Source: Allokutzneria sp. NRRL B-24872 (GTDB taxonomy: Bacteria; Actinomycetota; Actinomycetes; Mycobacteriales; Pseudonocardiaceae). From it: DNA of 32,856 nt. Made by a program: the position numbers and the translations under genes. The notes below the pieces were generated by a model. That model made no database searches. It was not told where the DNA came from and saw only the letters and a list, made by a program, of their open reading frames with translations. Shown here piece after piece: positions 31,868-32,856 of the stretch. The stretch covers positions 1 to 32,856 of the forward strand of contig NZ_MUMH01000140.1 of assembly GCF_002155965.1 (NCBI RefSeq), in the 5' to 3' direction. The first letter of the stretch is position 1. Each line of letters starts with the position of its first letter.

Positions 31868-31885
31868 TCCTGCCATCATCGGAGC

Positions 31886-32389
31886 ATGTCGGAGACGATC
31901 GAAGCCGGGATCGCGCGCATCACGTCGGCTCGCGCGGCCGGGCGGCACGAGGAAGCTCTCGCGTTGGCGCTGGAGTTGGTGGCCGAACACCCGGATGACG
32001 CGCGCGTGGCGTACCAGGCGGGGTGGGCGCACGACAAGCTCGGCAAGGAGAGCGCGGCGGTGCCGTACTACTCGCGGGCGCTGAGCCTGCCGGGGTTGAG
32101 TTCCGTGGAACGGCACGGCGTTTTTCTGGGGCTGGGTAGTACTTATCGGACCTTGGGGCGGTACGAGGAGTCGTTGGAGACGCTTCGGCGCGGGGTGGCG
32201 GAGTTTCCTGACTTCGCGCCGTTGAAGGCGTTCTTGGCGATGACGCTTTACAACTGCGGGGAGCACAAGGAAGCGGTGTCGACGTTGTTGAACCTTGTGC
32301 TGGACACTACTGAGGATGATTCGGTGAAGTCTTATTCTGAGGCTATCGCGTTGTATGCTCGGGACCTGGATCAGGTGTGGGATTCTTAG
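31886..32389 (+). CDS. Tetratricopeptide repeat protein
   Basis: A 167-residue protein of about four TPR units, for example AAGRHEEALALALELVAEHP, VAYQAGWAHDKLGKESAAVP, VFLGLGSTYRTLGRYEESLE and LKAFLAMTLYNCGEHKEAVS. Proteins of this type fold as helical hairpins and act as adaptors. It has no signal peptide. GGAG lies very close to the ATG at 31886. From about 32220 the codons shift toward A/T endings (CTT, ACT, GAT, TCT, TAT, GCT), unlike the first half and the genes to its left. It is divergent from the oxidoreductase operon. No specific role can be given. Confidence 0.82.
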   Translation: MSETIEAGIARITSARAAGRHEEALALALELVAEHPDDARVAYQAGWAHDKLGKESAAVPYYSRALSLPGLSSVERHGVFLGLGSTYRTLGRYEESLETLRRGVAEFPDFAPLKAFLAMTLYNCGEHKEAVSTLLNLVLDTTEDDSVKSYSEAIALYARDLDQVWDS

Positions 32390-32640
32390 CTGGTTCCGAT
32401 GGTTCCAGCGCGGGGTCGGCTTGACCTGGGAACCCCTTGCGCGTGCCCCTGGGCCTCACAGGGGCACGGGATAGAACACCCGGCCCTCGCGCGAGCGTAT
32501 GGCACGCGCACCCCAGGTAAAGCCGACCGTTCCAGCCGCGTGTTCTGTTTCGTGGGGGTTGCGTTTTTCGGGTGGTGGGGCGCCTGGGAATTCATTCTTT
32601 AGGGCCATGATCGACTATTATTTGCGGGTAGTATTGAGGT
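32390..32640. other. Gene-free region before the DUF222 gene
   Basis: Apart from the 115-bp inverted-repeat element, the region has a T-rich stretch (about 32540-32600) of lower GC than the rest of the window. TAGTAT (32629-32634), a good -10 box, ends 6 nt before the ATG at 32641, and GAGG lies in the gap. Frames of 67 and 69 codons on both strands across the element look like chance frames. Confidence 0.5.
32402..32536. mobile_element. Compact inverted-repeat element, MITE-like or structured RNA
   Basis: A 115-bp core (32414-32528) is bounded by 17-bp inverted repeats, GGTCGGCTTGACCTGGG and its reverse complement with one mismatch. Inside lie a second perfect pair, TGCGCGTGCC (32438-32447) with GGCACGCGCA (32501-32510), and a perfect 10-bp hairpin, CGTGCCCCTG (32442-32451) with CAGGGGCACG (32459-32468), which competes with it. 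GTTCCAGC occurs directly on both sides (32402-32409 and 32529-32536). Terminal inverted repeats and flanking direct repeats suggest a MITE, but the left direct repeat is 4 nt away from the arm. A structured RNA is also possible. No convincing protein frame is present. Confidence 0.55.
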
Positions 32641-32856
32641 ATGGCCCTCGATGAACTGTTGGTCGAGGTTGAGGCGAAACATGCTGCTCTTTGTCATGCG
32701 AAAGCGGAACTCGCCACGGCCTTGATCGCATTCCATGTCGCTGCTGATGATCGTGATTACCGGTATGTGCAGAATGAGGTCGCCTCGTCCCTGCACATCT
32801 CCCGACGCTCGGCGGATCGCATCCTGTCCAACGCTGCCGAGCTGACCGAGCGCCCG
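32641..32856 (+). CDS. DUF222 (13E12-type) HNH endonuclease family protein, 5' part only
   Basis: The first 72 codons of a gene running off the window. The sequence MALDELLVEVEAKHAALCHA then YVQNEVASSLHISRRSADRI and LSNAAELTERP matches the start of DUF222 (13E12 repeat family) proteins, where a helix-turn-helix-like EVA.xLxxS..xA is typical. Full-length members are about 400-500 residues and normally end in an HNH nuclease domain, which is not visible here. Such genes are multicopy in actinomycetes and associated with repetitive or phage-attachment regions (REP13E12 in Mycobacterium tuberculosis). Codons here have more A/T endings (GAT, GAA, CAT, GCT, AAA) than the rest of the window, consistent with transfer. 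Confidence 0.7.
   Translation, partial: MALDELLVEVEAKHAALCHAKAELATALIAFHVAADDRDYRYVQNEVASSLHISRRSADRILSNAAELTERP

Follow-up and report, generated by a model that had tools for sequence, protein, structure and literature searches.

We analyzed a window of 32,856 nucleotides, one contig (NZ_MUMH01000140.1) of the draft genome of Allokutzneria sp. NRRL B-24872 (G000; 8.19 Mb, 475 contigs, 95% complete), and focused on a hairpin element near its right-hand end, which we call E. E is a genuine family of hairpins, both conserved and dispersed, that has no match in Rfam. Within Allokutzneria, it forms the 5' terminus of a mobile DUF222-HNH unit of ~1.35 kb. In the window, it lies between a TPR-repeat gene and the start of a DUF222(-HNH) gene (Table 1). 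A preliminary description made from the window's letters had noted 17-bp terminal inverted repeats with one mismatch (stem P1), an inner perfect 10-bp pair (stem P2), a competing perfect 10-bp hairpin, and an 8-bp direct repeat, GTTCCAGC, on both sides; all of these were recovered, the direct repeat inside a repeat pair at 32396-32409 and 32523-32536. The DUF222/HNH gene that it had named as the neighbor is supported as DUF222 by its paralogues, whereas the HNH part lies beyond the window, which holds only 72 codons; this stub (32641-32856) was too short for Pfam and was not recognized. The window copy of E is more stable than its shuffles, with folding z values of -3.75 on the plus strand and -4.20 on the minus strand, and none of 200 shuffles on either strand was equally stable.

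Table 1. Element E and its surroundings in the window
Feature	Position	Strand	Basis
Element E, window copy	32408..32533	+	covariance-model match over the whole length, 120.9 bits, E 3.4e-25; alignment of 74 copies
Stem P1, 5' arm, GGTCGGCTTGACCTGGG	32414..32430	+	inverted pair and covariation
Stem P1, 3' arm, CCCAGGTAAAGCCGACC	32512..32528	+	inverted pair and covariation
Conserved CCCCT, 5' side, between P1 and P2; left unpaired by the model	32433..32437	+	alignments
Stem P2, 5' arm	32438..32447	+	perfect 10-nt pair; P2 stem in 33/33 sequences
Stem P2, 3' arm	32501..32510	+	perfect 10-nt pair; P2 stem in 33/33 sequences
Conserved unpaired GAGCGTAT, 3' side of P2; about AGNNTA across genera	32493..32500	+	consensus by eye
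Competing/apical hairpin	32442..32468	+	perfect 10-nt arms, 32442-32451 and 32459-32468
Incomplete copy of the motif of the upstream arrays (TTCCAGC)	32396..32409	+	repeat pair, array comparison
Leader preceding the DUF222 start, 3' of E; belongs to the repeated unit	32534..32640	+	unbroken homology between units over E, leader, and open reading frame (ORF)
DUF222(-HNH) gene, first 72 codons, truncated by the contig end	32641..32856	+	similarity to longer paralogues
TPR-repeat gene, codirectional, immediately 5' of the unit	31877..32389	+	TPR domains; the unit begins just after its stop codon

Copies of E and the repeated unit in Allokutzneria

By blastn, E was listed at 40 places in G000, the window's included, with 84 to 100% identity. 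With the covariance model, G000 and the relative G002 each had 104 matches. For these counts, which covered 16 genomes, up to 150 candidates were scored per genome and both strands were counted, after which the number was halved: 28 elements in 24 loci were each matched on both strands, and therefore 104 matches correspond to ~52 elements in each of the two genomes. The alignment of copies holds 74 of 76 distinct ones, two that contig ends truncate being left out, and the apical part of E exists in at least three versions within G000. In hand tallies of the 52 copies in G000, a DUF222 match follows 31, a contig end truncates 14 (the window's included), and 3 lie inverted behind a DUF222 gene as a second copy; the remaining 4 (L031, which was read, and those on contigs C412, C424, and C6, which were unread) are without DUF222. 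Pairing was thus found in 31 of 35 testable copies and extends over several DUF222 subfamilies. Seen from the gene, E accompanies 31 of the 46 DUF222 matches in G000, a partial E accompanies 1 (L124), and 12 are too close to contig ends. At two DUF222 genes of G000 (L135:1791-2882 and L136:1264-2379), the upstream region is intact but E is absent. A locus in Allokutzneria sp. A3M-2-11, whose protein is 73% identical to that of a G000 paralogue, also has E. The searches proposed in the preliminary description thus returned multiple dispersed copies, mostly directly ahead of DUF222 genes in G000, and with the covariation given below E turned out to be neither single-copy, nor unlinked to DUF222, nor devoid of covariation.

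Pairwise comparison delimited the unit. Homology starts at E, or an adjoining array, continues through a leader of ~100 bp and the ORF, and ends near the stop codon, beyond which the flanks differ. The site occupied in the window is empty in the relatives G001 and G002, where a convergent gene comes directly after the TPR gene; the window's own unit is unassembled on its far side. Likewise, G001 carries a unit at the L037 site, whereas G002 has none there. The dispersal of E is shown computationally. At the L018 site, filled in G000, G002 has 26 bases like the 3' end of the unit (L104:5185-5210, minus strand), a possible excision scar. Some DUF222 copies (L129:193-1391 and G002:C1:1786163-1787035) are disrupted by a frameshift or an internal stop; units decay in place. 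Searches of plasmids and phages gave no match.

Most G000 units have a single E rather than an inverted pair. A second, inverted E lies ~1.7 kb away, with a DUF222 gene between the two, at L024, L030, and L033 (G000) and at L115 and L117 (G001), and the homology of L024 to L030 and L033 covers both E copies. In genus g8 (L335-L339 and L342), E often forms an inverted pair 1.5 to 1.9 kb apart around DUF222, resembling long terminal inverted repeats. Variable arrays with the palindrome GCTGGNNTTCCAGC lie 5' of E: there are 52 exact matches in G000 versus 9 for a reversed control pattern, and 39 of the 52 fall, by hand tally, within ~200 bp upstream of an E in the same orientation.

A miniature inverted-repeat transposable element (MITE) was one of the two readings first offered. 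The many short dispersed copies agree with it, and solo E copies in other genera are a MITE-like feature. However, the target duplications expected of a MITE were not recognized at either of the two sites where filled and empty versions could be compared (the window's comparison being without the right flank), and in G000 plain MITE is the wrong name because the homologous unit includes a gene. The GTTCCAGC repeat does not resemble a target-site duplication, and that meaning was rejected: in the alignment of copies, its right-hand copy differs between units (ATTCC, GTTTC, TCGG, and others), and its left-hand copy looks like the short-palindrome arrays 5' of E; the two are not kept as a pair.

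E is kept alike while the genes behind it diverge, as shown computationally in 120 random pairs drawn from 51 units of three Allokutzneria genomes. Pairs with less than 35% protein identity (n = 61) had a mean E identity of 0.86 and an ORF nucleotide identity of 0.46; at 80% protein identity or above (n = 15), the values were 0.93 and 0.89. In G000, tip classes I and II of E are each paired with more than one DUF222 subfamily, and in G002 all 19 classed E copies belong to class I, whichever subfamily follows. E thus tends toward uniformity within a genome.

Covariation and occurrence in other genera

Outside the genus, blastn of E gave only two weak matches, L051 (which looks coding) and L052, and both were rejected by eye as copies of E. 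A covariance model (R1) reached further, with matches in 37 of 249 genomes and 11 of 46 genera of the family. A wider model (R2), applied to the order with strict filters and 8 candidates scored per genome, matched 10 of 397 genomes, all 10 in the Pseudonocardiaceae. DUF222 paralogues of genus g8 (G009) have a homologous hairpin with compensatory changes.

The covarying stems that the preliminary description had proposed to look for were found in a diverse set of 33 sequences chosen by hand, of which six were taken from the opposite strand so that CCCCT lies on the 5' side. In P1, 17 of 22 pairs changed on both sides and 93.9% of cells pair; there were 146 double-change cells versus 43.2 +/- 5.2 in shuffles, and none of 500 shuffles reached 146. 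With the P1 partner slid by 1 to 3 columns, the score fell from 0.541 to 0.126 or less. An internal mismatch of P1 is G.A in 15 of the 33 sequences and G-C in 18. P2 is a stem of 8 to 13 positions, some with one mismatch, in every one of them, although its sequences differ. The unpaired CCCCT and, by eye, about AGNNTA are kept across genera. Taken together, these computations show that the fold is kept across genera by compensatory change.

DUF222 genes, their proteins, and their upstream hairpins

DUF222 was found in 39 of 60 genomes of the family. We fetched 66 DUF222 loci for a scan against 40 shuffles; 64 had a called ORF and 59, which are diverse, had enough flank. An upstream hairpin beat the shuffles at 8 of the 59 (L139, L177, L179, L182, L184, L190, L192, and L200), as did hairpins inside the ORF at 1 and downstream at 4. 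With so few diverse loci beating shuffles, a hairpin ahead of DUF222 genes in general was rejected.

Multicopy DUF222 units in G010 (L205-L214), G008 (L235-L244), and G040 (L216-L220 and L224) have long non-E hairpins ~100 to 300 bp upstream of the DUF222 start. In the G040 stem, changes compensate each other, some units of G010 and G008 have short tandem repeats to the left of the hairpin, and the G010 and G040 hairpins differ from E yet have, by eye, a common inner stretch. The aligned leaders number 8 of 10 fetched for G010, 9 of 10 for G008, and 6 of 10 for G040, the others having begun elsewhere, been cut, or belonged to other subgroups. No hairpin was seen by eye in the leaders of G063, G049, and G025.

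In five relatives of the window gene's protein (369 to 494 amino acids), Pfam at E <= 0.01 recognized DUF222 in all five and HNH above the cutoff in one (L039), with HNH below the cutoff in P0002; no RuvC-type domain was found, only DUF222 and HNH. HNH-type residues (C..C, DH, N, C..HH) are conserved in an alignment of 25 sequences. Computational modeling predicted a ParB/Noc-like helix-turn-helix (HTH) fold in the DUF222 N-terminal region (residues ~13 to 139 of the L139:3001-4137 protein). Foldseek alone gave nothing significant, and no report of such a fold for DUF222 was found in the openly licensed literature.

What E may do, and the alternatives

We favor, tentatively and at a little short of an even chance, the reading that E is a DNA-level hairpin module at the 5' end of the mobile DUF222-HNH unit and is acted on by the DUF222-HNH protein. 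Action of this protein on the hairpin or the arrays would be the most economical reading. The ParB-like domain would bind palindromic DNA in E or in the adjoining short-palindrome arrays, the HNH domain would nick or cut there, and repair or copying from the break would carry the unit to further intergenic positions. E copies may be kept alike by recombination or by repeated copying among themselves. By analogy with the palindromic ends used by transposases of other classes, E may serve as a strand-processing site.

Several observations weigh against this reading. In G069, 149 of 150 scored candidates match the model, corresponding to at least ~75 elements, and there is no DUF222 match; G208 has 52 model matches and no DUF222 match, and G032 has 108 with 7 DUF222 matches. 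All 20 loci examined in G069 and G032 are solo E, with no DUF222 within 2.8 kb. At one orthologous locus, G245 has E-DUF222-E, whereas G252, G091, and G220 have a single E without DUF222. Therefore, DUF222 is not required wherever E occurs, and the tie between E and DUF222 is lineage specific, 2 of the 16 compared genomes having E without a DUF222 match. Twelve of the solo copies in G069 (L309-L320) are near-identical and have CGCTGCAGCG-type palindrome repeats ahead of them, and near another solo E, an Rfam match to the actinobacterial small RNA Ms_IGR-5 was noted (L279:2154-2330, minus strand).

These same solo copies, the DUF222-free genomes, and the single E of three genomes at that orthologous locus argue for E as a self-contained dispersed palindrome, like the repetitive extragenic palindromic (REP) sequences, spread or homogenized by another activity, with DUF222 units merely attached to it in Allokutzneria and part of g8. 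We regard this as doubtful, though it is the strongest alternative. The nearly complete pairing of E with DUF222 genes of several subfamilies in G000 and its place inside a homologous unit speak against it. In REP/RAYT systems, dispersed intergenic palindromes accompany a Y1 (RAYT) gene that carries the same palindromes; E likewise combines dispersed intergenic palindromes with a presumed nucleic-acid enzyme gene bearing them. Yet E is ~120 bases long with two stems and internal loops, and its partner is a predicted ParB-like HTH-HNH protein. Y1_Tnp, the domain of the known REP mobilizer, had no match in G000 (a 95% complete draft), G002, G032, or G069, although it is present in 5 of 16 genomes, and a Y1-type REP system was therefore rejected.

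The other reading first offered was a structured RNA, working with DUF222-HNH as omega-RNA does with IscB or regulating it, and this we consider unlikely. In IscB systems, a mobile unit encodes the HNH nuclease, and the omega-RNA (HEARO), itself structured, comes directly before that gene. E is placed similarly, though the HNH of IscB is inserted in a RuvC-like domain, which Pfam did not recognize in the five DUF222 proteins. The compensatory changes in both stems and the kept CCCCT and AGNNTA are compatible with RNA. However, P1 has 667 Watson-Crick, 13 G-U, and 10 A-C cells, whereas the counts for 11 distinct tRNAs of those loci are 214, 14, and 0 (ARAGORN may disfavor A-C). Since G-U is not favored over A-C in E, unlike what is expected of an RNA stem of this divergence, use of the hairpin as DNA is favored; this symmetry and the predicted resemblance of the protein to DNA-binding ParB favor, without proving, that E acts as a DNA hairpin. 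Solo copies also have no common neighbor gene and occur in all gene arrangements. Rfam 15 gave no match in window positions 32300-32856 at E <= 1, and on 14 loci of other genera, it gave five matches, none on an E. No description of E was found in the openly licensed literature searched (subscription papers were not covered).

A strong transcription terminator or insulator, conserved only because it lets the unit sit harmlessly behind genes, is very improbable. Among 42 Allokutzneria units with both neighbors called, 18 lie between convergent, 20 between tandem, and 4 between divergent genes, and the upstream gene is codirectional in 31, as a terminator would have it (gene neighbors, here and for solo copies, come from a heuristic ORF picker). 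Such a role would not need conserved internal loops, arms nearly invariant within a genome, or 120 bases, and the 20 solo loci comprise 6 convergent, 11 tandem, and also 3 divergent settings. Least credible of all is that the covariation reflects mutation rather than selection, through the template-switch correction known for quasipalindromes, which keeps long palindromes perfect: strict Watson-Crick pairing without wobble bias fits, but correction would be expected to erase the unpaired motifs, and the position with G.A or G-C, that are kept in the 33 sequences.

Beyond a DNA-level module acted on by DUF222-HNH, a bolder proposal, slightly more doubtful than the self-contained palindrome, is that E and DUF222-HNH together constitute a mobile element of a new class. 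Its nuclease, ParB-like and palindrome-binding, would recognize hairpins folded in single-stranded or cruciform DNA, nick them, and copy itself to positions between genes with no known transposase involved; the hairpin could also spread alone, and other DUF222 lineages would use different hairpins at the same position. Recognition of folded single-stranded DNA is known for the attC sites of integrons, whose fold and unpaired bases are conserved while their sequence and tip vary. E has the same combination, but no GTTRRRY/RYYYAAC core was seen by eye in its alignments (no integrase search was made), and its copies are scattered rather than in cassette arrays.

The REP13E12/13E12 repeats of mycobacteria are repeated DUF222(-HNH) genes with no defined biological function in the parts available of PMC13061034 and PMC10589994. 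As here, such genes recur within one genome. The Allokutzneria copy number, however, is above the 14 annotated genes given in the available part of PMC13061034, E goes unmentioned in the available parts of both sources, and the scan of 12 mycobacterial DUF222 loci gave no upstream hairpin that beat shuffles. Genes of the DUF222/13E12 type are common in the family and, as far as these partial sources go, have been set aside as repeats to which no defined function is assigned (PMC13061034; PMC10589994). A hairpin partner, a unit with ends, and a predicted ParB-like fold would give them a testable mechanism. With its strong covariation, its presence in 11 genera, and no Rfam match, the E family is a good candidate for curation, and it is suited to asking how DNA hairpins stay alike within a genome.
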